This document shows, piece by piece, positions 29,509 to 42,130 of a stretch of DNA of 64,000 nt. The notes under the pieces are model-generated. The model was not told the DNA's origin. It was given only the letters and a program-made list of their open reading frames with translations, and did not search any database. The position numbers and the translations under genes are program-made. Numbering within the stretch: position 1 is the stretch's first letter; each line of letters begins with the position of its first letter. The stretch spans positions 1,860,001-1,924,000 of the forward strand of contig NZ_CP084712.1 in assembly GCF_023822045.1 (NCBI RefSeq), written 5' to 3'. This stretch comes from Sphingopyxis sp. USTB-05. Its GTDB lineage: Bacteria > Pseudomonadota > Alphaproteobacteria > Sphingomonadales > Sphingomonadaceae.

Positions 29509-30594
29509 TCAGCCGAAATGCAGGCGACGGTATTTTCCGCGAAAATAGAGCAAGGGGTCGCGATGCGGCTCGAACTGCGCGCGCACTACCCGACCGACGA
29601 GGATGAAATGGTCGCCCGCTTCGTGCAGCGATTCGTGCTGGCACTCGAACGAGACGAGCGAGCTGCCTAGCAGCGGCACGCCCGTCTGACCCGGGGCCCA
29701 CGGCTGGCCTGCGAACCGGTCTTCGCCCTTTGCCGCAAAACGGTTCGATGTCGGCTGTTGGCCGATCTGCAGCACATTCACCCCAAAATGCGCGGCTTGG
29801 CGTAGCGCGGGCGCGGTTCCGGCGGTGTTGGCGATGCACACGAGCAGCAGCGGAGGATCGAGCGAGACCGACGTGAAACTGTTCGCGGTGAGTCCGACGG
29901 GGGCTCCTTCGGCATCGAGGGCGGTCACGATCGTGATGCCCGTGGCAAAGCAGCCCATTGCATCGCGCAGCGTGCGCGGATCGGATCCCGCCTTGAATTC
30001 CATCGCCTCGCGCGGCTGCCGACGTTCGAGGAACTCGAGAAGCTGTCCAAGCAGCGCTTCCCGGCGATCTGACGCCAGTTCAAGGTCGCAATCATTGATG
30101 TCGGCGCTCTGTCCGAGCGGCAACGCCGCGATGAAGGCATCGCTGTGAGCGCTGGCCTGCGCGGGAGAAAAGCCGCCGCGAACGACGAGGGTCGGCAGCG
30201 CGAGGCGCGCTGCGACGCCGCTTGCTCCGTCGCCGTCATCAGGGGGCATGTCGACGAGCACAAGGCCGGCGGCGAGATGCGCCCCATCATCAAGGCCGAG
30301 CGCGCGCGTTGCGATCCAACTGCCGCGTCCCGCCGCGACCACGACCGGCCGCGATCCCATCTGCGCAAGAACAGCGCGCAAATCCTCAATATGCGGCGCG
30401 AGATCGGCGCCATCCCGAAGGTCGAGATTGACGACGCGGCGCCCGGAAAGCACAAGAGCCTCGGCGACATCCCGCCAGCTTGCGCGGTCCTGCCCGATTT
30501 CGGGGACGAGGAGCACCGCTGGGTCATTTTCGTCGCCCAGCATGTCGGCCGCCAGAACAACGCCGCCGAAACCCTTGTATTCGATAAGGCTCAA
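29509..30594 (-). CDS. Fusion: degenerate alpha/beta-hydrolase-like domain + flavin reductase domain
   Basis: A 361-residue two-domain protein. Residues 1 to about 195 look like an alpha/beta-hydrolase fold (VVLAADMLGDENDPAVLLVPEIGQDRASW, RVVNLDLRDGAD, PTLVVRG). The nucleophile elbow reads GRGSW (89-93) instead of GxSxG, and no catalytic His is visible near the end, so this half is probably not hydrolytic. Residues from about 205 are a flavin reductase-like FMN-binding domain (TLRDAMGCFATGITIVTA, GLTANSFTSVSLDPPLLLVC, HFGVNVL, DHFILVGRV). The second half would supply reduced flavin to a monooxygenase or act on FMN itself. The stop codon abuts tRNA-Ser. Confidence 0.88.
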   Translation of the reverse strand: MSLIEYKGFGGVVLAADMLGDENDPAVLLVPEIGQDRASWRDVAEALVLSGRRVVNLDLRDGADLAPHIEDLRAVLAQMGSRPVVVAAGRGSWIATRALGLDDGAHLAAGLVLVDMPPDDGDGASGVAARLALPTLVVRGGFSPAQASAHSDAFIAALPLGQSADINDCDLELASDRREALLGQLLEFLERRQPREAMEFKAGSDPRTLRDAMGCFATGITIVTALDAEGAPVGLTANSFTSVSLDPPLLLVCIANTAGTAPALRQAAHFGVNVLQIGQQPTSNRFAAKGEDRFAGQPWAPGQTGVPLLGSSLVSFECQHESLHEAGDHFILVGRVVRAQFEPHRDPLLYFRGKYRRLHFG

Positions 30595-30708: not shown

Positions 30709-31689
30709 TCAGGCGCGCATCGACGCGAGCCGCCCGTCGACGATCGCGTCGGCATCGGCGATGATCCGGTCGATCAGTTCCTTACAGGTGGGGATGTCGT
30801 GGATAAGCCCCTGCACCATTCCGGCCCAGAAAACGCCTTTCGAAAGGTCGCCGGTCTCCAGCAACTCGCGGCCCGCCTTGCCGTTCACCAGTTCGGCGAC
30901 GTCGGCAAAGGTCGCATCGGGGACAGCAAGGCGGCGCACAACCTCCTCGCTCACTTCGCTCTTTCCGACGCGCGCAGTGTTCTTAAGGCTGCGGAAGATC
31001 AGGAAGCTGCCGCGCTCGTCGTTGTCGATATAGGCCTGTTTCACATTCGCGTGGATCGGCGCCTCGACCGTCGCGCAGAAGCGCGTGCCCATGTTGATCC
31101 CTTCCGCACCCAAGGTAAGCGCAGCAACGAGACCACGCCCGTCGCCGAAGCCGCCCGAGGCAAGCATAGGAATCTTCACCTTGTCGGCAGCGGCGGGGAT
31201 CAGGATCAGGCCGGGGATATCATCCTCGCCCGGGTGGCCCGCGCATTCGAAACCATCGATCGAAATGATGTCGCAGCCCGCGCGTTCGGCCGACAGCGCA
31301 TGGCGGACCGCCGTGCATTTGTGGAGGATCGTGACGCCATGGGGCTTCAGCATTTCCCAAATCTCGCGCACGGCCTGTGTACCCGCGGTCTCGACAATCT
31401 TGACTCCGCCGTCAATGATAGCCTGAGCATAGGCCTTGTAATCGGGGGCATTGATCGTCGGAAAAACGGTCATATTCACGCCGAAAGGCTTGTCAGTCAT
31501 CGCGCGGCAGCGCTCGATTTCGGCGCTGAGTGCGGCGGGGGTCGGCTGGGTCAGCGCGGTGATAATGCCCAGTCCGCCAGCATTCGACACGGCGCTGGCA
31601 AGTTCGGCATAGCCGACGCTCTGCATGCCGCCCTGGACGATCGGATGCTCGATACCCAGCATTTCGGTGATGCGTGTCTTGAAAGCCAT
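30709..31689 (-). CDS. Nitronate monooxygenase-family flavoprotein
   Basis: A 326-residue FMN TIM-barrel of the NMO/2-nitropropane dioxygenase family: TRITEMLGIEHPIVQGGMQ at the start, SNAGGLGIITAL, ISIDGFECAGHPGEDD, then the phosphate-binding MLASGGFGDGRGLVAAL and GINMGTRFCATVEAP. Family members include nitronate oxidases and, in actinobacterial steroid degradation, the IpdC reductase, so the name does not fix the substrate. The ATG at 31689 gives the conserved N-terminus; the longer frame to 31857 is rejected. It is divergent from an acyl-CoA dehydrogenase gene, with a palindromic operator-like site between them. Confidence 0.9.
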   Translation of the reverse strand: MAFKTRITEMLGIEHPIVQGGMQSVGYAELASAVSNAGGLGIITALTQPTPAALSAEIERCRAMTDKPFGVNMTVFPTINAPDYKAYAQAIIDGGVKIVETAGTQAVREIWEMLKPHGVTILHKCTAVRHALSAERAGCDIISIDGFECAGHPGEDDIPGLILIPAAADKVKIPMLASGGFGDGRGLVAALTLGAEGINMGTRFCATVEAPIHANVKQAYIDNDERGSFLIFRSLKNTARVGKSEVSEEVVRRLAVPDATFADVAELVNGKAGRELLETGDLSKGVFWAGMVQGLIHDIPTCKELIDRIIADADAIVDGRLASMRA

Positions 31690-31750
31690 CCTCTGTCCCT
31701 TCTCGGTTGTCCTGCCCCTACGGCATCTTCGCTTCGACCCATGAAATAAC

Positions 31751-31770
31751 TTGACGCTTACGTCAACGTC
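31751..31770. promoter_or_regulatory. Palindromic operator-like site, copy 1
   Basis: TTGACGCTTACGTCAACGTC in the NMO/acyl-CoA dehydrogenase divergent gap, 40 bases before the dehydrogenase ATG. It differs by one base from the site at 33033-33052. The CGTTTACG/ACGTCAACG shape resembles sites of MerR-family LiuR regulators of branched-chain catabolism; that resemblance is from memory and the regulator is not encoded in the window. Confidence 0.65.
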
Positions 31771-31810
31771 GGGTTGAGCGATTATATAGATAGCGAAGGG
31801 AATCGGGATT

Positions 31811-32989
31811 ATGACAAGCGAAGGTATATCGGATCGGGCACTGGCCATTGCCGCCAAGGTCGAAACCTTCGTTCGCGAAATTGTCGTTCCTTATGAAAAA
31901 GACCCGCGCCGCGACCACCACGGCGCGCCGACTGACGAACTTGTGATGGAAATGCGTGAGCATGCGCGTGCAGCAGGGGTGCTAACCCCGCACATCCTGG
32001 GCAACGGCGATCATCTGAACCAGCGCGAGACGGCGGTCGTTCTCATCAAGAGTGGCCTCTCCCCGCTCGGCCCGCTCGCTTGCAACACCATGGCACCCGA
32101 TGAGGGCAATATGTACCTCCTTGGCAAGGAAGGCAGCCCCGAGCTCAAGGAACGGTTCCTGAAGCCGATGGTGGCCGGTGAAGTGCGCTCGGCCTTCTTC
32201 ATGACCGAGCCTGCTGACGAAGGTGGCGCGGGGTCCGACCCGTCGATGATGAAGACGACCTGTCATCTTGATGGCAATCATTGGGTGGTGAACGGTCGAA
32301 AGACCTTCATCACCGGTGCAATGGGTGCGCGCGTCGGTATCGTGATGGCAAAGTCCGAGCAGGGCGCATGCATGTTCCTCGTCGACCTGCCCGATCCCGC
32401 AATTCGCATAGACGACGTGCCGAATACGATCGACAGTTCGATGCCCGGCGGCCATGCGACGCTGACCATCGACAATCTCCGCATCCCCGCCGACCAGATG
32501 CTTGGCGAGGCAGGCGAAGGCTTTCGTTATGCGCAGGTGCGCCTGTCCCCTGCCCGCCTGTCGCACTGCATGCGCTGGCTGGGCGCTTGCATCCGTGCGC
32601 ACGAGATCGCGACCGACTACGCCAACCGCCGCGAGGCGTTCGGCAAGCCGTTGATCGACCATGAGGGCGTCGGCTTCATGCTCGCCGAAAATATGATCGA
32701 CCTTAAACAGGCCGAGTTGATGATCGACTGGTGCGCGGGGGTGCTCGACACCGGATCGCTTGGCACGGTTGAAAGCTCGATGGCGAAGGTCGCGGTGTCG
32801 GAAGCTTTGATGCGCATCGCCGACCGCTGCGTCCAGGTAATGGGCGGGACCGGCGTGACCGACAAGACGATCGTCGAGCAAGTGTTTCGCGAGGTCCGCG
32901 CCTTTCGCATCTACGACGGCCCCACCGAAGTCCACAAATGGAGCCTCGCGAAGAAGATCCGCCGCGACTGGAAGTCTGGGCTCGCCTGA
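31811..32989 (+). CDS. Acyl-CoA dehydrogenase (ACAD10/11-like)
   Basis: A 392-residue FAD enzyme catalysing alpha,beta-desaturation of an acyl-CoA. The middle domain has FFMTEPADEGGAGSDPSMM and WVVNGRKTFITGAMGA. The C-terminal helical domain has RREAFGKPLIDHEGVGFMLAEN and VMGGTGVTDKTIVEQVFREVRAFRIYDGPTEVHKW. IYDGP(T/D)EVH ending is characteristic of the ACAD10/11 branch, which takes long or branched substrates. It has its own promoter with a palindromic site and stands apart from the next pair by about 110 bases that hold a second copy of the site. Confidence 0.93.
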   Translation: MTSEGISDRALAIAAKVETFVREIVVPYEKDPRRDHHGAPTDELVMEMREHARAAGVLTPHILGNGDHLNQRETAVVLIKSGLSPLGPLACNTMAPDEGNMYLLGKEGSPELKERFLKPMVAGEVRSAFFMTEPADEGGAGSDPSMMKTTCHLDGNHWVVNGRKTFITGAMGARVGIVMAKSEQGACMFLVDLPDPAIRIDDVPNTIDSSMPGGHATLTIDNLRIPADQMLGEAGEGFRYAQVRLSPARLSHCMRWLGACIRAHEIATDYANRREAFGKPLIDHEGVGFMLAENMIDLKQAELMIDWCAGVLDTGSLGTVESSMAKVAVSEALMRIADRCVQVMGGTGVTDKTIVEQVFREVRAFRIYDGPTEVHKWSLAKKIRRDWKSGLA

Positions 32990-33032
32990 CACGCTCGTCA
33001 GTTGCGGCGTGAAAAGCGTAGCGTCAAAGTGC

Positions 33033-33052
33033 TTGACGTTTACGTCAACGTC
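33033..33052. promoter_or_regulatory. Palindromic operator-like site, copy 2
   Basis: TTGACGTTTACGTCAACGTC, 46 bases before the ATG at 33098. TTGACGT and ACGTCAA are exact complements around TT. It is 19/20 identical to the copy at 31751-31770, and each lies just ahead of an acyl-CoA dehydrogenase gene, so common regulation is likely. Confidence 0.7.
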
Positions 33053-33097
33053 CGGTTCATTGGCCGCAACGAGATAATGGGAAGGACGGGTGCAGGC

Positions 33098-34192
33098 ATG
33101 ACCATCCTCTACGACGAAGGCCAGCAGGCGATCGCGACCGAGTCGCGGCGCGTATTGGAGGCGCGGATCAACAAAGACGCACTGTTGCCACTCCTCGAAA
33201 CCGTCGGCGAATATCATCGCCCCTTCTGGGACACTGCAAAGGAACAGGGCTGGACCGCGCTTGCACTTCCTGAAGCCGAGGGCGGCCTGGGCCTCGGGCT
33301 GATCGAATTGGGCCTGATCGCGCACCAGGCCGGGCGCAGCATCAGCGGCGCGCCGTTTCTGACTGCAGGTTTCGGCGTAGCCAAGGCGATCGAGCTTTTC
33401 GGGTCCGATGCGCAAAAGGCGCGCTGGCTACCCGGATTGGCGAGCGGCGAAACCATCGGCGCTATCGCCTTTGCGGCGGGTCCCGACGCCCTTCCCGCCC
33501 GTCCCGATGTGACCTTTACCGGCGACCGGCTCGACGGCACCGTACGCAGTGTTTCTGCGGGACTCGTCGCGGATATCGCCATCGTTTTTGCGAACGGGCC
33601 GGGTATGCCGGTGCTCGCGCTGGTCGAACTCGCCGGAGCAAAGCGCTCCGCCGTCCCCAGCTTCGACAATAGCCGCCTGATTGCCGATATCGGCTTTTCG
33701 GGCGTGCCAGCAGAAACGCTCGCCGTCGGCAGCGCCGCGCGCGACGCAGCGCTTCATATCCTGGCTTTACAAGCCGTCGTCACCGCGCACGAGCAGACCG
33801 GCGGCGCCGAGGCGCTCATGGAGATTGCACGCGATTATGCGCTGACACGCAAGGCATTCGGCCAGCCGATCGGCGCTTTCCAGTCGGTGAAGCATCGCAT
33901 CGCCGAACTCTACGGCCTTGTCGAACTGGCCCGCGCGAACTGCATTCATGCCGCAGCCCGCGAAGGAGCCGCCGATTTCATCACCGCTGCCGCGGCCGCG
34001 CGCCTGTCGGCGACCGAGGCCTATGACACCGCAGCGCGCGATTGCATCCAGATCCATGGCGGCATCGGCGTTACGTGGGAAATCGGGCTGCATCTCCATA
34101 TGCGCCGGGCGCGCAGCCTCGCCATCGAACAGGGTAGCAGCCTGTTCTGGGAGGACGTCCTCGTCGACCAGCTAGCGGGAGAAGGTGCATGA
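33098..34192 (+). CDS. Acyl-CoA dehydrogenase, small partner subunit
   Basis: A 364-residue ACAD-family protein with N helical domain (ALPEAEGGLGLGLIELGLIA), a diverged middle beta domain (IGAIAFAAGPDAL, where active enzymes have the FAD-contacting TEP..GSD, is degenerate) and a C domain with DYALTRKAFGQPIGAFQSVKHRIAEL and IQIHGGIGVTWEIGLHLHMRRA. This matches the cofactor-poor subunit of heteromeric (alpha2beta2) ACADs known from actinobacterial steroid catabolism. The stop overlaps the start of the large subunit gene (ATGA). The ATG at 33098 follows GAAGGACGGG; an alternative is 33077. Confidence 0.9.
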   Translation: MTILYDEGQQAIATESRRVLEARINKDALLPLLETVGEYHRPFWDTAKEQGWTALALPEAEGGLGLGLIELGLIAHQAGRSISGAPFLTAGFGVAKAIELFGSDAQKARWLPGLASGETIGAIAFAAGPDALPARPDVTFTGDRLDGTVRSVSAGLVADIAIVFANGPGMPVLALVELAGAKRSAVPSFDNSRLIADIGFSGVPAETLAVGSAARDAALHILALQAVVTAHEQTGGAEALMEIARDYALTRKAFGQPIGAFQSVKHRIAELYGLVELARANCIHAAAREGAADFITAAAAARLSATEAYDTAARDCIQIHGGIGVTWEIGLHLHMRRARSLAIEQGSSLFWEDVLVDQLAGEGA

Positions 34193-35394
34193 GCGATCTT
34201 GAAGCCTATCGCGCCAAGGCCGCGGCCTGGCTCCAGTCGATGGCGCCGACATTTGGCCGCGAGGCGCGCAAGGGCCTGTCCGAGGCCGACGATCTGGCCC
34301 TCGGCCGCCAGTATCAGAAAGCGAAGTTCGACGCGGGTTATGCCGGGATCAACTGGCCAACCGAATATGGCGGCCAAGGGCTCAGCCATCTTGAAAAGGT
34401 GACTTTCGACGCCGAGGAAATGAAGCACGGCTTCCCGAGTTTCTATTTCGGCATCTCGCTCGGCATGCCCGTACCCGTGCTGATGCAGTTCGGCAGCGAC
34501 AAGGAGTTCGTGAAGGAGCGCGTCCTCAAGGCGTTGCAGGGCGAAGAAATCTGGTGCCAGCTTTTTTCCGAGCCGTCCGGCGGATCGGACCTCGCGGGCC
34601 TGCGCACCAAAGCCGAGCCTGACGGCAACGGGTGGAAGATTAACGGCCAGAAGGTGTGGACGAGCTGGGCGCATTATAGCGACTACGGCGTCATTGTTGT
34701 GCGTACCGACCCGACCGTCGCGAAGCACAAGGGCCTCACCTATTTCTGGGTCGACATGAAGGCGCCGGGCGTGACGGTTCGCCCGATCAAGCTTGCGGGC
34801 GGCGATAGCCATGTCAACGAAGTCTTCTTCGACGATGTGAAGATCACCGACGACCATCGTATGTCGCCGGTCGGTGGCGGCTTCGCGGTCGCCATCGCGA
34901 CGCTGATGATCGAACGCTATGTCGCGACCGACAGCGCGGGATTCGGTCCGCATCTCGACCTGTTCGTCGAACTGGCTAAGGATGTTCAGTTCAATGGCCG
35001 CCCGGCGATCGAGGATGGCCGGATCCGGCAACAGATCGCGCGCAACTATGCGATGCGCTCGGGGCTCGATTCGATCAATGTGCGCGCGCGGCTGATGATG
35101 CAGGCGGGGATGATGCCGGGTCCCGAGGGCTCGCTCAACAAGCTGGTCGCGGTCCGCTCGCGCCAGAAACTGTCCGAACTCGCGCTCGATCTGCAAGGCA
35201 GCAACGCCTTCTTTTTCGACGAACATGCCTCGCAAAAGGAAGATTGGGCGGCGAGCTGGATCAACGCCCCGACGGGCCGCATCGCGGGTGGGTCGGACGA
35301 AACATTGCTCAATACGATCGCCGAGAAGGTGCTCGGCCTGCCGCAGGATCATCGCCCGGACAAGGGCATCCCCTTCAACCAGATTCCCGCCTGA
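34189..35394 (+). CDS. Acyl-CoA dehydrogenase, large partner subunit
   Basis: A 401-residue ACAD. Its FAD/substrate region is canonical (CQLFSEPSGGSDLAGLRTKA, WKINGQKVWTSWAHYSDYG) and its C-terminal GRIAGGSDETLLNTIAEKVLGLP is the usual adenine-FAD contacting end. Long inserts are absent. The 4-base overlap with the preceding small-subunit gene and the complementary degeneracy suggest an obligate heteromer. The SDR gene follows 11 bases later with GAGGAG between, so these are one operon. Confidence 0.92.
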   Translation: MSDLEAYRAKAAAWLQSMAPTFGREARKGLSEADDLALGRQYQKAKFDAGYAGINWPTEYGGQGLSHLEKVTFDAEEMKHGFPSFYFGISLGMPVPVLMQFGSDKEFVKERVLKALQGEEIWCQLFSEPSGGSDLAGLRTKAEPDGNGWKINGQKVWTSWAHYSDYGVIVVRTDPTVAKHKGLTYFWVDMKAPGVTVRPIKLAGGDSHVNEVFFDDVKITDDHRMSPVGGGFAVAIATLMIERYVATDSAGFGPHLDLFVELAKDVQFNGRPAIEDGRIRQQIARNYAMRSGLDSINVRARLMMQAGMMPGPEGSLNKLVAVRSRQKLSELALDLQGSNAFFFDEHASQKEDWAASWINAPTGRIAGGSDETLLNTIAEKVLGLPQDHRPDKGIPFNQIPA

Positions 35395-35405
35395 GGAGCC
35401 TCGCC

Positions 35406-36188
35406 ATGAAGATTGATTCCACCATCGCAGCGGTTGTCACCGGCGGCGCCTCGGGACTTGGCCGGGCCACCGCCGAAGCGCTGGCCGCGTCGGGCGTGAA
35501 GGTCGCGATCTTTGACATCAACGATGCGCTTGGCGAAGAGGTCGCGGCATCGATCGGCGGACTGTTCGTCCATGTCGATATCACCGACGAGCAATCGGTG
35601 CTCGATGGTTATGCCAAGGCACGCGCGGCGCATGGACAGGAGCGCGTCTGTGTCCATTGCGCGATGACCTCGCGCCGCGGCAAGACGCTTGCCTATGACA
35701 AGGAAACGGGCGGCTATCGCCGTACACCGACCGCCGACTACGCCTTTGGCGTCGAAGGCATATTGACCGCGAGTTATCGTGTCGCGTCGATCGCAGCTGA
35801 GGGCATGGCGGCGCTTCCCGAAATGGAAGATGGCGAACGCGGCGCAATTGTACTGACCGCCTCGGTCGCGGCGCAGGATGGCCAGATCGGTCAGGTCATC
35901 TATGGCTCGGCGAAAGCCGGCGTGAACGGCCTTGTCCTGCCGATGGCGCGCGACCTGATGGACCTTGGCATCCGCGTCAATTCGATCATGCCGGGCGTGT
36001 TCGGTACGCCGCTTCTCAATAATATGAACCCGAAGGTGAAGGAGAGCCTTGAGGCCTCGGTCCCCTTCCCCAAGCGTCTCGGCAAGGCCGAGGAATATGC
36101 GAGCCTGGCGATGGAGATGGTTCGCAACACCTATTTCAACGGGCAGGCAGTGCGCCTCGATGGCGCGATAAGGATGGCCCCCCGCTAA
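35406..36188 (+). CDS. SDR-family 3-hydroxyacyl-CoA dehydrogenase-like enzyme
   Basis: A 260-residue short-chain dehydrogenase. The NAD-binding TGGASGLGRATAEAL (residues 12-26) and an acidic Asp after strand 2 (AIFDIND) indicate NAD rather than NADP. The active-site Ser is in LTASVAAQDGQ and Tyr-x3-Lys in VIYGSAKAG. The NNAG loop is replaced by HCAMTSRRG, similar to the HSD10 (type II 3-hydroxyacyl-CoA dehydrogenase) branch with its C at this place. The probable step is oxidation of 3-hydroxyacyl-CoA between a hydratase and the thiolase downstream. ATG at 35406 follows GAGGAGCC. Confidence 0.9.
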   Translation: MKIDSTIAAVVTGGASGLGRATAEALAASGVKVAIFDINDALGEEVAASIGGLFVHVDITDEQSVLDGYAKARAAHGQERVCVHCAMTSRRGKTLAYDKETGGYRRTPTADYAFGVEGILTASYRVASIAAEGMAALPEMEDGERGAIVLTASVAAQDGQIGQVIYGSAKAGVNGLVLPMARDLMDLGIRVNSIMPGVFGTPLLNNMNPKVKESLEASVPFPKRLGKAEEYASLAMEMVRNTYFNGQAVRLDGAIRMAPR

Positions 36189-36254
36189 CCCCCCGCCAAA
36201 TCTCTTTTCAATCGACCGACGACCCTCAAAGCTCTCCACGAAAGGATATCCACC

Positions 36255-37505
36255 ATGGCCGAGGCCTATATCATCGACGCCGTTCGCACCCCTCGTGGGG
36301 TGGGCAAGCCCGGCAAGGGTGCGTTGTCGCACCTTCACCCGCAGCATCTCGCCGCAACGGTTCTCGCCGCGATCCGCGACCGGAACAATCTCGACACCGC
36401 TACCGTCGACGACATCGTCTGGTCGACGTCGAGCCAGAACGGCAAGCAGGGCGGCGACCTTGGCCGCATGGCAGCGCTGTCGGCAGGCTATGACACCAAG
36501 GCCAGCGGCACGACGCTCGACCGTTTCTGTGGTGGCGGGATCAGTTCGGTGAACTTTGCCGCCGCAAGCGTGATGAGCGGCATGGAAGATTGCGTGATCG
36601 CCGGTGGAACCGAGATGATGAGTTATACGACTGCCCACGCGGCCGAACAGGCGAACGCGGGCCTGCCGCCGCGCCTGATGGGATCGGGCCACGAGGCGCT
36701 CGACGAACTTCACCCGCAGTCGCATCAGGGCGTATGCGGCGATGCGATCGCGACGATCGAAGGCATCAGCCGGGAAGACCTCGATGCGCTCGCCCTCGTC
36801 AGCCAGCAGCGCGCCGACCGCGCAATCAAGGAAGGCCGCTTTGCTAAGTCGGTTGTGCCGGTACTCAATCCGGACGGCAGCGTGGCACTCGACCATGAAG
36901 AATTCCCGCGGCCCGAAACGACGGCGGAGGGGCTTGCCTCGCTGAAGCCCGCGTTCACCGGCCTTGCCGATTTCGACCTTGGCGGCGGCTTTACTTTCCG
37001 CAAGCAGATCAATCGCCGTTATCCCGATGTCGAAATCCAGCATTTCCATCACGCCGGCAATTCGTCGGGCGTTGTCGACGGCGCCGCAGCGCTGCTGCTG
37101 ACGTCGAAGGATTATGCCGACAAGCATGGCCTGAAACCGCGCGCCCGCGTCGTCGCCTATGCCAATATCGGCGACGACCCGACGCTGATGCTCAACGCAC
37201 CGGTTCCGGCGGCGAAGAAGGTGCTCGAAAAAGCCGGGCTGAAGAAGGAAGACATCGACGTCTGGGAGATCAACGAAGCGTTTTCGGTTGTCGCCGAGAA
37301 GTTCATCCGCGACCTCGACCTTGACCGCGAAAAGGTGAATATCAACGGCGGCGCGATGGCGCTGGGGCATCCGATCGGTGCGACCGGCTCGATCCTGATC
37401 GGCACCGCACTCGACGAACTCGAAAGGTCGGGCGGCCGCTATGGCCTCGTCACCATGTGCGCCGCCGGCGGCATGGCGCCCGCGATCATCATCGAACGTA
37501 TCTGA
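36255..37505 (+). CDS. Thiolase (acetyl-CoA C-acyltransferase)
   Basis: A 416-residue degradative thiolase. The acyl-carrying Cys92 is in DRFCGGGISSV; the catalytic His is in GGAMALGHPIGATGS and the second Cys in TMCAAGGMAP. EINEAFSVVAEKF is the expected NEAF motif. It cleaves a 3-ketoacyl-CoA with CoA. It follows the SDR gene by 66 bases that contain AAAGGA before the start and precedes the racemase by 16 bases. In gene order SDR-thiolase-racemase the last steps of a beta-oxidation turn are together. Confidence 0.94.
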   Translation: MAEAYIIDAVRTPRGVGKPGKGALSHLHPQHLAATVLAAIRDRNNLDTATVDDIVWSTSSQNGKQGGDLGRMAALSAGYDTKASGTTLDRFCGGGISSVNFAAASVMSGMEDCVIAGGTEMMSYTTAHAAEQANAGLPPRLMGSGHEALDELHPQSHQGVCGDAIATIEGISREDLDALALVSQQRADRAIKEGRFAKSVVPVLNPDGSVALDHEEFPRPETTAEGLASLKPAFTGLADFDLGGGFTFRKQINRRYPDVEIQHFHHAGNSSGVVDGAAALLLTSKDYADKHGLKPRARVVAYANIGDDPTLMLNAPVPAAKKVLEKAGLKKEDIDVWEINEAFSVVAEKFIRDLDLDREKVNINGGAMALGHPIGATGSILIGTALDELERSGGRYGLVTMCAAGGMAPAIIIERI

Positions 37506-37521
37506 GGAACAGGAGAGCATC

Positions 37522-38652
37522 ATGACCGGTCCGCTGAAGGGCATCAGGATTATCGAATTTGCCGGCATCGGTCCCGGCCCCTTCTGCGGCATGATGCTCG
37601 CCGACCATGGCGCCGAGGTGATCCGTATCGATCGCCCCGGCGGCTTCATGGACCCGCGCGATCCGCTGAGCCGCAACCGCACCTCGATCGTGCTCGACAT
37701 GAAGAACCCAGAAGCGGTTGAGGTTGCGCGCGATCTTTGCAAAAGCGCCGACGGGATCATCGAAGGCTATCGGCCGGGCGTGATGGAGCGGCTGGGCCTT
37801 GGCCCCGAGGTATTGCTCGCGGACAATCCGAAGCTCGTTTACGGCCGCATGACCGGTTGGGGGCAGTTCGGTCCCTATGCGCAGGCGGCGGGCCACGACA
37901 TCAATTATATCTCTCTGTCGGGCGTGCTCCACGGCATCGGGCGTGCGGGTGAAAAGCCCGTTCCGCCCGCCAATTATGTCGGTGATTTCGGCGGCGGGGG
38001 GATGATGTTGGCGTTCGGCATGTCGAGCGCGCTCGTCCACGCAGCGCGCACCGGCGAAGGACAGGTAATCGATTGCGCGATGACCGATGGCTCGGCGCTG
38101 CTCGCTGGCATGAGCTGGTGGTTCCATGCCGCCGGGCGGCTGCAAGACCAGGCGGGCGTCAACATGCTCGACGGCGGCGCGCATTTCTATGACAGCTATG
38201 CCTGCGCCGACGGCAAGTTCATCTCGATCGGATCGATCGAACCGCAATTTTATGCGCTTCTGCGTGAGAAGACCGGCCTCACCGATGACCCCGATTTCGA
38301 TGCACAGATGGATCCCGCGCAATGGGGTCCGCTGAAGCACAAGTTGACCGCGCTGTTCGCCACGAAGACGCGCGATGAATGGTGTGCGATCATGGAAATG
38401 ACCGACGTCTGCTTTGCCCCGATCCTGTCGCTTGGCGAAGCACCTCAGCATCCGCACAATGTCGAGCGCGAGACGTTCCTAACGGTCGGGGGTGCAGTCC
38501 AGCCTGCGCCCGCGCCGCGCTATTCGGCCACGGTCAACGATACCCCGCGTCCTGCACCGACGGTAGGTGCCGATGGCGAAGCGGTGTTGGCAGGTCTTGG
38601 CTATGAAGCCGCAACGATAGCGGCGCTGCGCGAGGGCGGCGCGGTTCGCTGA
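37522..38652 (+). CDS. Alpha-methylacyl-CoA racemase (class III CoA-transferase fold)
   Basis: A 376-residue CaiB/BaiF-fold protein. Unlike true CoA-transferases it has the racemase catalytic set: His125 in AGHDINYIS, Asp155 in NYVGDFGGGG and Glu240 in GSIEPQFYALL, each one residue from the positions reported for mycobacterial MCR (His126, Asp156, Glu241). It epimerises 2-methylacyl-CoA so that stereospecific ACADs can act, which points to a branched substrate (isoprenoid or sterol side chain). The ATG at 37522 follows AGGAGAG; the longer frame to 37441 lies in the thiolase gene. Confidence 0.94.
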   Translation: MTGPLKGIRIIEFAGIGPGPFCGMMLADHGAEVIRIDRPGGFMDPRDPLSRNRTSIVLDMKNPEAVEVARDLCKSADGIIEGYRPGVMERLGLGPEVLLADNPKLVYGRMTGWGQFGPYAQAAGHDINYISLSGVLHGIGRAGEKPVPPANYVGDFGGGGMMLAFGMSSALVHAARTGEGQVIDCAMTDGSALLAGMSWWFHAAGRLQDQAGVNMLDGGAHFYDSYACADGKFISIGSIEPQFYALLREKTGLTDDPDFDAQMDPAQWGPLKHKLTALFATKTRDEWCAIMEMTDVCFAPILSLGEAPQHPHNVERETFLTVGGAVQPAPAPRYSATVNDTPRPAPTVGADGEAVLAGLGYEAATIAALREGGAVR

Positions 38653-38655
38653 CGC

Positions 38656-39357
38656 TCAGGCGCCGCGCGCAGTCATCGCTTCCCAGAGGCCGCGCCCGCC
38701 GAGGCCGCTAACCTGGCGGCCGAGGCGCTGCGCCCAATAGGCGTCGTTGCCGTGGGCGCTACGCCAGCGCATGAGCGGGATCGTCACGCGGTGGAGGTCA
38801 TATTCCTCTGTAAAGCCGATCGCGCCATGAACTTGATGTGCGACGGCCGTGACGACGCCGACTGCGCGATTGGCGCGTAGTTTGGCTGCCGCAATCTCAA
38901 GGTCGGCGGCGGCGACGTCGAGTTGTACCGCGTCCAGCCGCGCAGCGAGCGCCGCCACCGCGGCCTCGACCGCGCGCACCTCGCACGCCATCACGGCGAG
39001 CGACTGTTGCACCGCCTGGAATTTGCCGAGCGCGCGGCCGAATTGCTGACGGGTGTTCACATGCTCGATCGAGAGCGCGAGAGCCTGCCCCATCGCGCCG
39101 GCCATCAAGCTAACCGTCGCCGCGGGTTGGAGCGCTTCACCCGCAACCAGCTCGGCGACCGGAAGATCGGGCGCCAGCACGCCGGCGATCTGCAGCACTG
39201 CATTTGCATCGCCCCAATCGCCGCCAAAACCGCCCTGCTCTTCCGGTATCAGCAACAGCCCGAAACCCGCTTCCTCGATCGGCGCGATGCCTGCGGTCAC
39301 CGCTTCGCCAAATACCGCACGCGCGGTATCGCAGAGCATGTCGCGCCCTGCGCTCAT
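38656..39357 (-). CDS. Acyl-CoA dehydrogenase-family protein lacking the middle domain
   Basis: Only 233 residues. The first 76 or so resemble the end of the ACAD N-terminal helical domain (AGFGLLLIPEEQGGFGGDWGDA). From about 80 the C-terminal helical domain starts directly (SLMAGAMGQALALSIEHV, NTRQQFGRALGKFQAVQQSLAVM, VHGAIGFTEEYDLHRVTI). The beta-barrel middle domain, about 100 residues that bind FAD and acyl-CoA, is absent without any frameshift or stop. Its ATG overlaps the stop of the full-length ACAD gene upstream (ATGA), so it is likely that enzyme's non-catalytic partner. It ends 3 bases from the convergent racemase gene. Confidence 0.85.
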   Translation of the reverse strand: MSAGRDMLCDTARAVFGEAVTAGIAPIEEAGFGLLLIPEEQGGFGGDWGDANAVLQIAGVLAPDLPVAELVAGEALQPAATVSLMAGAMGQALALSIEHVNTRQQFGRALGKFQAVQQSLAVMACEVRAVEAAVAALAARLDAVQLDVAAADLEIAAAKLRANRAVGVVTAVAHQVHGAIGFTEEYDLHRVTIPLMRWRSAHGNDAYWAQRLGRQVSGLGGRGLWEAMTARGA

Positions 39358-40493
39358 CTGAGGCCCAATCCGCGTGCGATGATTCCGCGGATCACCTCAC
39401 GCGTTCCGCCGCGCAGCGAGAAGCTGGGCGAGGCAATGAGCAACGCACGAAGCAGTTTGGCGAGATCATCTTCATCATCCCATCCGCAGTCGACGATCGC
39501 CTGGACACGGCGCGGCATATCCTGTTCGAAGGCATTGCCCAGTTCCTTGACCACCGACGCCTCGACCATCGGATCCTCGCCCGCCGCAAGCTTGGCCGCG
39601 GTCGACATGGAGAGTTGACGCAGCGTCCACATCTCGGCGGTCAATTCGCCGATCAACCCGGCAATCGCTGGCGCTGGGGCGGGGCCAGCTGAATCGATCA
39701 ATGCAACAAACAGCGCGTGGCTCGACAGATAGCGTTCGGGGCCCGAACGTTCGAGCCCGAGTTCGGCGGTGACTTGTTTCCATCCCTGTCCGGGCTCACC
39801 GACAAGGGCGCCGTGCGGGACGAGCACATCGTCGAAGAAGACTTCATTGAAGTCGTGATGGCCGGCCATGTCGATGATCGGGCGGATCGTGATTCCCGGC
39901 GTGTCGAGGTCGATCAGCAGTTGGCTCAACCCCGCGTTACGCTCGCTGCCTTCTTCTGTGCGAACGAGCGCAAGCATGATGTGCGAGAAATGCGCGCCGG
40001 TGGTCCATATCTTCTGACCGTTGATGCGCCAGCCTTCCGCCGTTTCGCGTGCCGATGTGCGCACGGCCGCAAGGTCGGACCCGGCCCCCGGCTCGGACAG
40101 TCCGATACAGGCGTAAAGCTCACCCTTGGCGATGCCTGGCAGGTGACGCTGGCGCTGCTCCTCGCTGCCGTAACGCAGGATAAGCGGTCCGGTCTGCCGG
40201 TCCGCGATCCAGTGCGCGCCGACGGGCGCCCCCGCCGCGAGCAATTCCTCGATCACCACATAGCGTTCGAGCGGATGACGGTCGCCGCCGCCATAGCGCC
40301 CCGGCAATGTCATCCCGATATAGCCAGCGGCGCCGAGCAGGCGGCTGAAGTCAGGGTCGAAACTCGCCCAGCAATTCGCCCGCGCGACCACGTCGTCCTG
40401 CGGCTGATTTGCCGCAAGCCATCTCCGTAAATCGGCGCGCAGTGCGACAATGTCGCCGGGCGGATCAAAAGGATAGAGCGCAAAGCCTTGCAT
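39354..40493 (-). CDS. Acyl-CoA dehydrogenase, full-length partner
   Basis: About 379 residues with standard ACAD features: MTLPGRYGGGDRHPLERYVVIEELLA in the N domain, CIGLSEPGAGSDLAAVRT (FAD/substrate) and WRINGQKIWTTGAHFSHI in the middle domain, and the C-terminal FSLRGGTREVIRGIIARGLGL. It is followed with a 4-base overlap by the truncated partner at 38656. Start choice is uncertain: 40493 (MQGFALYPF) or 40511, neither with a strong ribosome site. It is divergent from the crotonase gene, with about 50 bases between. Confidence 0.9.
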   Translation of the reverse strand: MQGFALYPFDPPGDIVALRADLRRWLAANQPQDDVVARANCWASFDPDFSRLLGAAGYIGMTLPGRYGGGDRHPLERYVVIEELLAAGAPVGAHWIADRQTGPLILRYGSEEQRQRHLPGIAKGELYACIGLSEPGAGSDLAAVRTSARETAEGWRINGQKIWTTGAHFSHIMLALVRTEEGSERNAGLSQLLIDLDTPGITIRPIIDMAGHHDFNEVFFDDVLVPHGALVGEPGQGWKQVTAELGLERSGPERYLSSHALFVALIDSAGPAPAPAIAGLIGELTAEMWTLRQLSMSTAAKLAAGEDPMVEASVVKELGNAFEQDMPRRVQAIVDCGWDDEDDLAKLLRALLIASPSFSLRGGTREVIRGIIARGLGLR

Positions 40494-40544
40494 GTCGCAC
40501 CAGCCATGCAATAGCTTTGGTTAGGCAGCAAAGGATAATTGAAG

Positions 40545-41348
40545 ATGGGCGAATTTTTGAGTGTCGAGCGGCGGGGCAAGATCGCGATCCTGACGATGAT
40601 CAAACCCGAAAGCATGAACGCGATCGGCACGCATGAGGATTGCCAGGACATCATCGACACGCTCCGCACCCTTGGCGATGACCGGGGCGTCAGTGCGATC
40701 ATCCTGACCGGCAGCGGTAAGGCATTCAGCGCCGGCGGGAACCTGAAAGGCATGCAGGACCGGACCGGCATCGGCGTACTGGACCAGCCCGATTCCACCC
40801 GCGCCAATTACCGCAAGGGTGTGCAGGCGGTTATCCGCGCGCTGATGGATTGCGAGGTGCCGATGATCGCCGCGGTCAACGGCCATGCGATCGGGCTCGG
40901 CGCCGATCTCGCCTGCACCTGCGACATTCGCATCGCCGCCGAAAGCGCGAAATTCGCGTGCAGTTTTATCAAGGTCGGGATCGTCCCCGGCGACGGCGGG
41001 GCATGGCTCCTGCAAAAGATACTCGGATATCCGCGTGCCGCCGAACTGTTCCTGACCGGCGACCGCTTTGACGCGCAGCAGGCAAAGGAATATGGTCTGG
41101 TCACGGACGTCGTGCCCGATGCGGAACTGCTCGACCGTGCAATCGCCATTGCCGAGCGGATCGTCTGCAACCCGCCCCGCGCGCTGCGCCTGACGAAACG
41201 TCTGCTCCGCGAGGCGCAGCACAGCCGGATGAGCGATATTTTGGAACTGAGCGCAGCCTATCAGGCGATCGTCCACGAAACCGCGGATAACCGCGAGGCG
41301 ATCAATGCCTTCGTCGAAAAGCGTCCCCCGGTGTTTACAGGAGAATGA
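40545..41348 (+). CDS. Enoyl-CoA hydratase/isomerase (crotonase) family protein
   Basis: A 267-residue crotonase-fold enzyme: oxyanion loops SGKAFSAGGNLKGM and AAVNGHAIGLGADLACTCDI, then VGIVPGDGGAWLLQKILG. The first hydratase Glu position is Asp here (GADLA for GCELA), and the second Glu is replaced by Phe, while the GDGG loop offers an Asp as in PaaG-like isomerases. So hydration versus isomerisation is open. The ATG at 40545 follows AAGGATAATTG; it overlaps the phosphatase gene by 4 bases. Confidence 0.9.
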   Translation: MGEFLSVERRGKIAILTMIKPESMNAIGTHEDCQDIIDTLRTLGDDRGVSAIILTGSGKAFSAGGNLKGMQDRTGIGVLDQPDSTRANYRKGVQAVIRALMDCEVPMIAAVNGHAIGLGADLACTCDIRIAAESAKFACSFIKVGIVPGDGGAWLLQKILGYPRAAELFLTGDRFDAQQAKEYGLVTDVVPDAELLDRAIAIAERIVCNPPRALRLTKRLLREAQHSRMSDILELSAAYQAIVHETADNREAINAFVEKRPPVFTGE

Positions 41349-42130
41349 TGATGATTGCCGAACGCGTCCTGCCGCTGTCCGGCGTCCATAATTTCCGCGA
41401 CTATGGCGGCTATTCCGTCGAAGGTGGCGGACGGCTGCGCGACGGGACGCTGTGGCGTTCGGCGCACCATGAGGCGGCGACCGACGACGATCTTGATGCG
41501 CTCGACGCGTTGGGGCTGGAGACGGTGATCGACCTGCGCGGCGACGATGAGCGCGAATTGCATCCGTGCCGGCGGTCGGAGACTTTTTCGGCGCGTGTGC
41601 TATTCGCGGGCGGGATCACGGCGGGCCTCGCGCCGCATCTGCAGGCGGCGGGCGGGACGATCGATGTCGAGACGGCGCGCGAACGTATGATCGATACATA
41701 TGCCGGCATGCCCTATCGTCCCGCGCTTGTCGCGACGCTGCGGCTCTATCTGTCCGCACTCGCCGAATATGATGCGCCCAGCCTTGTTCACTGCGTCGCG
41801 GGCAAGGACCGCACCGGATTTGCCGTCGCGATCGTTCACCGACTGCTCGGGGTCCATGACGACGATCTGATGCAGGATTATCTTCTCACCAACACGGCAG
41901 GCAAGATCGAGGAACGCATTGCACAGGGCGCGGCGCATATCCGTTCGCGCTACGGCGCCGAAATCCATGACGACGCGATCCGCGCGTTGATGTCGGTCAA
42001 CCCCGCCTATCTTGAAGCCGCACTCGCGACAGTCCGGCGCGATCATGGCGATATCCCGACCTATGCCGAGGCCGTTCTGAATTTCACCCCTAACATGCGC
42101 GACGCATTGGTCGACCGGTTGGTGGTCTGA
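41345..42130 (+). CDS. Tyrosine-protein phosphatase (CX5R type)
   Basis: A 261-residue cytosolic phosphatase of the bacterial tyrosine/serine (MptpB- or LipA-like) group. The P-loop is HCVAGKDRTG with Cys150 and Arg156; N-terminal LSGVHNFRDYGGY and LWRSAHH..DLDALDALGLETVIDLR are family signatures. HCxxGKDR with Lys-Asp after the Cys is often linked to phosphoinositide activity. It overlaps the crotonase gene (ATGA), so co-translation is expected; a role in acyl-CoA metabolism is not evident. Three tandem ATGs make the exact start uncertain by two codons. Confidence 0.92.
   Translation: MMMIAERVLPLSGVHNFRDYGGYSVEGGGRLRDGTLWRSAHHEAATDDDLDALDALGLETVIDLRGDDERELHPCRRSETFSARVLFAGGITAGLAPHLQAAGGTIDVETARERMIDTYAGMPYRPALVATLRLYLSALAEYDAPSLVHCVAGKDRTGFAVAIVHRLLGVHDDDLMQDYLLTNTAGKIEERIAQGAAHIRSRYGAEIHDDAIRALMSVNPAYLEAALATVRRDHGDIPTYAEAVLNFTPNMRDALVDRLVV

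Follow-up and report, generated by a model that had tools for sequence, protein, structure and literature searches.

Several described systems offer points of comparison for the acyl-CoA gene island of Sphingopyxis sp. USTB-05 treated here. PA1024 of Pseudomonas aeruginosa is an NADH:quinone oxidoreductase (NQO), a class that genome context links to fatty-acid catabolism (PMC10033279, in excerpt). LiuR is a MerR-family regulator whose box lies before its own gene (PMC7238569 and PMC3223726, in excerpt), and the heteromeric acyl-CoA dehydrogenases (ACADs) Tcur3481/Tcur3483 and FadE28/FadE29 (6wy8, 6wy9, 4x28) each pair a small with a large subunit. In the HIP-type degradation of steroid rings C and D, IpdAB has the fold of a type I CoA-transferase without the catalytic Glu, IpdF stands at 39% to levodione reductase, and EchA20 clusters with MenB (PMC5380842, in excerpt); bile-salt clusters have been treated for Caenibius (PMC12882949, in excerpt). 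The island lies in a window, by which we mean the whole stretch of 64,000 nucleotides analysed (positions 1860001-1924000 of a 4.68 Mb single-contig genome), and holds an NMO-fold (nitronate monooxygenase-like) flavoprotein, a single ACAD (ACAD1), two ACAD pairs, a short-chain dehydrogenase/reductase (SDR), a thiolase, a racemase and a crotonase (Table 1). We propose, at a probability of about 0.6, that the island belongs to the core of the genus Sphingopyxis and serves the beta-oxidation of acyl-CoAs that are bulky or 2-methyl-branched, under predicted MerR control together with the genes for electron transfer flavoprotein (ETF; etfBA), ETF:quinone oxidoreductase (ETF-QO) and other acyl-CoA enzymes.

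The strongest new result of the analysis is the operator link. A palindrome, TTGACG-N4-CGTCAA, stands both in the gap between the NMO-fold and ACAD1 genes and in that between ACAD1 and the small ACAD subunit of pair 1. Exact copies number 12 genome-wide, against none for the backward control and about 0.18 expected from the base composition of the window, and when up to two mismatches to TTGACGTWWACGTCAA are allowed, 18 positions match, 17 of them distinct, where the control has 1. A third match in the window, with one mismatch, falls at 31400 inside the NMO gene (shuffles gave a mean of 0.23, and 1 of 100 gave three or more). Copy 1 is present in 24 of the 24 loci where both flanking genes could be placed. 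Copy 2, at one mismatch or fewer, lies upstream of pair 1 in 45 of the 80 loci gathered by relatives of the large ACAD, namely all 43 of L039-L081 together with L085 and L090.

In the USTB-05 genome we count 19 distinct operator sites, 12 of them at acyl-CoA or ETF genes, three ambiguous and four at neither. The 12 comprise the two island sites and those at a gene for a MerR-family regulator (143 aa) that has a FadE-type ACAD (600 aa) behind it, an SDR-crotonase unit, ETF-QO (a site also upstream of a uracil-DNA-glycosylase gene), etfBA, a crotonase accompanied by a thiolase-like gene, an ACAD pair, a saccharopine-dehydrogenase-like gene accompanied by an acyl-CoA thioesterase, a carboxyltransferase (PF01039) whose similar site is 20 bp upstream, and two more single ACADs. 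Near two of the ambiguous sites lie a second NMO-fold gene (PF03060; L151:2712-3845, at about 1826.2-1827.3 kb), with the operator 55 bp from its start, and a gene for a pyrroloquinoline quinone (PQQ)-dependent alcohol dehydrogenase (L155:4226-6484, at about 3480.7 kb), with an exact operator near its start.

Of 99 family genomes, 80 hold a match to the MerR protein, 73 of these at E < 1e-30. At its 30 best loci, a site with up to two mismatches lies within 200 bp upstream of the MerR gene in 29, against 1 of 30 with one shuffle per locus; the box before the regulator's own gene, as in the LiuR regulon, is thus found in nearly all of them, and the FadE-type ACAD likewise adjoins the gene in 29. 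A site also precedes etfB in 12 of 30 best loci, with 6 of 600 for shuffles and 0 of 30 for an inside-gene control. The island seems to belong to a LiuR-like regulon of acyl-CoA genes: this resembles the LiuR regulon and its ILV box in the family of the regulator, the box before the regulator's gene and the connection to acyl-CoA catabolism (PMC7238569, PMC3223726 and PMC5343134, in excerpt), and differs from it in its members, which include ETF, ETF-QO, and FadE-type and paired ACADs. Titles and abstract openings returned by our literature search held no report tying MerR to a beta-oxidation, ETF or acyl-CoA dehydrogenase regulon in Alphaproteobacteria, and no paper on Sphingopyxis with alpha-methylacyl-CoA racemase. 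The letters of the palindrome presumably resemble those published for the LiuR box. A broader proposal, which we regard as possible rather than probable, is that the MerR-family, LiuR-like protein is a general regulator of acyl-CoA oxidation in the Sphingomonadaceae, governing the FadE-type ACAD, ETF, ETF-QO and, in Sphingopyxis, an island that would oxidise 2-methyl-branched or terpenoid acyl-CoAs by means of a heteromeric ACAD in which the entire middle beta-domain of the small partner is gone.

From the gene families, the aligned residues of the racemase, the conserved island with its operators and the palindrome common to them, we infer the reactions, the regulator with its binding, and the substrate as follows. 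The racemase would interconvert 2R- and 2S-methylacyl-CoA, and the two heteromeric pairs and ACAD1 would introduce the 2,3-double bond, passing electrons to ETF and ETF-QO. Hydration by the crotonase would follow, the HSD10-type SDR would oxidise the 3-hydroxyl with NAD+ as acceptor, and the FadA-type thiolase would free acetyl- or propionyl-CoA, while the PA1024-type flavoprotein may hand NADH electrons back to quinone. The MerR-family regulator, its gene about 0.2 Mb away beside the FadE-type ACAD, would bind the palindrome before ACAD1 and pair 1, and so govern, along with the island, etfBA, ETF-QO and further acyl-CoA genes. A full turn of beta-oxidation is encoded beside a predicted 2-methylacyl-CoA racemase, and a 2-methyl-branched or bulky acyl-CoA is therefore the likeliest substrate.

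The individual enzymes were typed by family models and by their nearest solved chains in the PDB. When the racemase is aligned with the Mycobacterium tuberculosis enzyme MCR (1x74), His126, Asp156 and Glu241 are all kept, residues whose role we take to be catalytic; with its CoA-transferase III fold and this His/Asp/Glu set, it classes with the AMACR/Mcr racemases, and it differs from MCR in sitting in a beta-oxidation island. Elsewhere in the genome, the match to a second Mcr-like gene (56%; 3919610-3920683) holds one in-frame TAG, and a similar one occurs in genome G157. The NMO-fold protein matches PA1024 (2gjl, 6e2a) best and end to end, at 403 bits, against 172 bits for the best FabK; by this full-length similarity it falls in the PA1024-type NQO class, with the activity predicted, and unlike PA1024 it has paired ACADs and a racemase as neighbours. 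For the SDR, the best match, almost full length, is 1u7t (3-hydroxyacyl-CoA dehydrogenase type II, HSD10), from which the island protein differs in being bacterial. The thiolase scores 812 bits with PRK06025 (cut-off 568), and its best solved match is Rv0859 FadA at 354 bits, with FadA5 at 219. The crotonase exceeds the cut-off of PRK09245, and its nearest solved chain is 7mcm (228 bits); its acid residues, compared by eye with the rat sequence, are presumably non-standard.

Among the ACADs, ACAD1 is led by 4hr3 (174 bits), with ACAD11 chains next at 160-172 bits. The large subunit of pair 1 is closest to Tcur3483 (115 bits) and then 4x28 (105 bits), and that of pair 2 to 8hk0 (148 bits) and then Tcur3483 (131 bits); the small subunit of pair 1 matches mitochondrial long-chain acyl-CoA dehydrogenase (LCAD) at 82 bits, with Tcur3481 a close second at 78. 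Read by eye in the alignment, the helix-G position carries Glu in both large subunits and not in the small ones; the position itself, and the role of its Glu, we take to be as in isovaleryl-CoA dehydrogenase and LCAD. The island pairs are thus like Tcur3481/Tcur3483 and FadE28/FadE29 in their small/large pairing and in the helix-G Glu of the large subunit, but the scores against those heteromers are just 65-131 bits, the small subunit scores below LCAD, and the small subunit of pair 2, unlike theirs, is without a middle domain.

This last protein, of 233 aa, has PF00441 as its sole Pfam domain. All of the best 120 of its 1653 homologues measure 226-238 aa, and in 24 loci the homologue is 231-239 aa if counted from the start that corresponds to the query's, though several offer alternative starts farther upstream. 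In L100, an uncultured Sphingomonadales contig, the homologue aligns in two blocks, query residues 1-76 and 96-231, separated by DNA for about 100 residues at the site of the middle beta-domain in full-length ACADs.

Gene calls combined open reading frames (ORFs), translations and domain searches, with start codons picked by eye. They agree with the gene set and placement given by an earlier sequence-only reading of the window, apart from slight corrections of starts, and they uphold its description of ATGA-overlapping ACAD pairs (both overlap by 4 bases); its claim of a catalytically complete AMACR-type racemase is likewise supported by the three residues aligned with MCR. The order of pair 2, large then small, is the reverse of that of pair 1. 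An 803-aa minus-strand ORF at 35349-37760 was rejected as antisense to the SDR and thiolase. The genome has 34 PF00441 matches, five of them in the island within a span of about 8.7 kb; this density, and a gene order kept in dozens of loci, argue that the clustering of ACADs is not chance.

Table 1. Features of the island (window positions), followed by operator sites of the genome classed as ambiguous or as lying outside acyl-CoA and ETF genes (genome positions).
Feature	Position	Strand	Evidence or context
NMO-fold flavin mononucleotide (FMN) protein, PA1024-type NQO class (predicted activity)	30709-31689	-	PF03060 177 bits; PDB 2gjl 403 bits
Operator copy 1, TTGACGCTTACGTCAA	31751-31766		between divergent NMO and ACAD1 genes
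ACAD1, stand-alone ACAD10/11-like acyl-CoA dehydrogenase	31811-32989	+	Pfam N, M and C domains; PDB 4hr3
Operator copy 2, TTGACGTTTACGTCAA	33033-33048		about 50 bp upstream of pair 1 small ACAD subunit
Pair 1 small ACAD subunit	33098-34192	+	PF02771 + PF00441, without PF02770
Pair 1 large ACAD subunit	34189-35394	+	ATGA overlap with small subunit; Glu at helix-G position (MIERY)
HSD10-type SDR, predicted 3-hydroxy(-2-methyl)acyl-CoA dehydrogenase	35406-36188	+	PDB 1u7t 184 bits
FadA-type 3-ketoacyl-CoA thiolase	36255-37505	+	NCBIfam PRK06025; PDB Rv0859 FadA
Alpha-methylacyl-CoA racemase (Mcr/AMACR type)	37522-38652	+	PF02515; MCR 1x74 399 bits
Pair 2 small ACAD subunit, 233 aa, without middle beta-domain	38656-39357	-	PF00441 alone
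Pair 2 large ACAD subunit	39354-40493	-	Glu at helix-G position (GLERS); 4-base overlap with small subunit
Crotonase, PRK09245 subfamily	40545-41348	+	369 bits, cut-off 354
Tyrosine-phosphatase-family protein	41345-42130	+	PF13350; final ORF of the stretch
Ambiguous site	1827399		second NMO-fold gene / divergent gene, by eye like nadC
Ambiguous site	3094306		SDR
Ambiguous site	3480753		PQQ alcohol dehydrogenase
Non-member site	72125		inside ORF
Non-member site	614344		inside ORF
Non-member site	1499364		before AAA ATPase gene
Non-member site	2782307		GTP cyclohydrolase / TonB receptor

At the edges of the island, the tyrosine-phosphatase-family gene overlaps the crotonase gene by 4 bases and adjoins it in conserved loci whose contigs reach that far. 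The protein encoded at 29509-30594 (minus strand) has a C-terminal flavin-reductase domain and an N-terminal part that by eye is like a degenerate alpha/beta hydrolase; in a relative in L114 (1871-3121), both domains exceed the Pfam cut-offs.

The island is chromosomal and genus-core, kept by most Sphingopyxis. Relatives of the large ACAD at 93-96% fall mostly in Sphingopyxis records, and the protein is found in 73 of 80 Sphingopyxis genomes (E < 1e-150); of the seven that lack it, four are 68-88% complete. All 40 genus genomes examined have a racemase relative at 75% or more. Pair 1 is followed by the SDR and thiolase in 43 of the 80 loci (L039-L081), with the remaining island behind them where contigs reach; in Novosphingobium loci the pair is accompanied by only some of these partners. 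Relatives of the SDR occur in 89 of 99 family genomes, at 65% or more in about 20 and at 60% or less in the others, and for this reason SDR presence was rejected as a marker of the island. Variant islands (L070, L058, L063, L065, L067 and L076) carry, next to pair 1, one more ACAD pair together with crotonases, and keep the operator before pair 1; that of L070 also has a MaoC-type protein, a thioesterase and a CoA ligase, which may hint at the substrate. On plasmids, the surroundings of related ACADs and NMOs, viewed in 10 regions from 52 and 206 matching records, are catabolic clusters of various kinds, and these regions fixed no substrate.

Several observations weigh against the proposed module and its regulation. 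The operator of pair 1 is absent from 35 of the 80 loci, five of them labelled Sphingopyxis (L082, L087, L088, L091 and L095), with the genomes of L087, L088, L091 and L095 holding another locus that has it; the strict form TTGACGTWWACGTCAA occurs in just 9 of 59 family genomes, the site is absent from 18 of the 30 etfB loci, and the 51-bp gap from which pair 2 and the crotonase diverge has no operator. Several sites lie between divergent genes, so that the gene served is a choice, as at the ETF-QO site, and binding of the palindrome by the MerR protein is predicted from gene position alone. Within L039-L081, some islands are missing ACAD1, pair 2 and in some cases the NMO gene. The island holds no CoA ligase, the genome has two further Mcr-like genes (56% and 48%), and the best solved match of the pair 1 small ACAD is mitochondrial LCAD, not a steroid-type subunit.

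The island might instead serve general fatty-acid or branched-chain amino-acid catabolism without a dedicated substrate, for the operator is common to etfBA, ETF-QO, the FadE-type ACAD and other ACADs, and the thiolase is of FadA type. Straight-chain oxidation, however, needs neither heteromeric ACADs nor a racemase, and with 34 ACAD matches in the genome, general need alone leaves retention in 73 of 80 genomes unexplained; we consider this unlikely. The same sharing of the operator with ETF, FadE-type and other ACAD genes calls for a qualification of the sequence-only reading's description of a dedicated system; its suggestion of a methyl-branched acyl-CoA survives, favoured by an Mcr-type racemase with its catalytic residues, the HSD10-type SDR, the FadA-type thiolase and the heteromeric ACADs. 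An acyclic isoprenoid route (citronellol, phytol, pristanate) would be a special case of the proposed module, and we hold it to be unlikely to a similar degree. The racemase, SDR and thiolase would suit alternating release of acetyl- and propionyl-CoA from 2-methyl chains, and the carboxyltransferase gene with its like site could belong to such a route, but that gene is typed only to PF01039, and no biotin-dependent acyl-CoA carboxylase (AtuC/AtuF) was found among the island proteins, to which the search was confined.

Steroids provide the remaining candidates. Side-chain beta-oxidation, without ring cleavage, of sterols or bile acids imported in partly degraded form seems to us improbable. 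A steroid-type heteromer subunit does head the solved chains for the large ACAD of pair 1 and comes second for that of pair 2, the racemase is of Mcr type, and the EchA19 model gives the crotonase 213 bits; that model's cut-off is 400, though, the small ACAD is nearest to LCAD, the operator is common to ETF and FadE-type genes, the genome has no KshA, and the island is present in the genus whatever the KshA status.

The steroid-ring alternative raised by the sequence-only reading, in which the NMO would be IpdC, the pair IpdE1/E2, the SDR IpdF and the thiolase FadA6 of the HIP route, is largely refuted for this genome and in our view very improbable, with the Ipd proteins judged through family models and solved chains. 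The broad family names do match, the IpdE2 model (NF050027) hits a small ACAD, and the pSA2 plasmid cluster (L123) has ACAD pairs, an NMO at 62% to the island's and two crotonases. Yet the two small ACADs reach 115.5 and 50 bits with that model, whose cut-off is 450, and no IpdE1 model appears among the domain-search matches of the island proteins. For kshA, a search of the whole genome with KshA_C (PF19298) gave 0 matches; the model works in the genus, matching 21 of 80 genomes (19 at E < 1e-20), and the large ACAD occurs in 17 of the 19 strong-KshA genomes and 56 of the 61 others, which is no association. For ipdAB, the sole PF01144 pair of the genome exceeds the scoA and scoB family cut-offs and has a SENG motif in subunit B. 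Subunit A of the CoA-transferase on pSA2 likewise scores in the scoA family, and the HIP-like label once considered for that cluster was dropped on this account. The remaining enzymes fall in other subfamilies: the SDR is of HSD10 type, HSD10-type chains leading its matches and levodione reductase not being among the best 60 of 502 (a comparison with solved chains, not with IpdF itself); the thiolase is of FadA type, with 311 bits for the steroid thiolase model PRK07850 (cut-off 515), FadA6 being judged by subfamily models; and the crotonase is of PRK09245, with MenB-type chains at just 105-109 bits, near the end of the best 60 of 223 structure matches, EchA20 being judged by subfamily.

For Sphingopyxis, the analysis replaces an unsupported steroid label with one that can be tested. 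The beta-domain-less ACAD subunit may serve as a natural deletion with which to ask what the small partner does in heteromeric ACADs. Through the palindrome, the island is connected with ETF and FadE-type genes, which raises the question of MerR control of beta-oxidation in sphingomonads.

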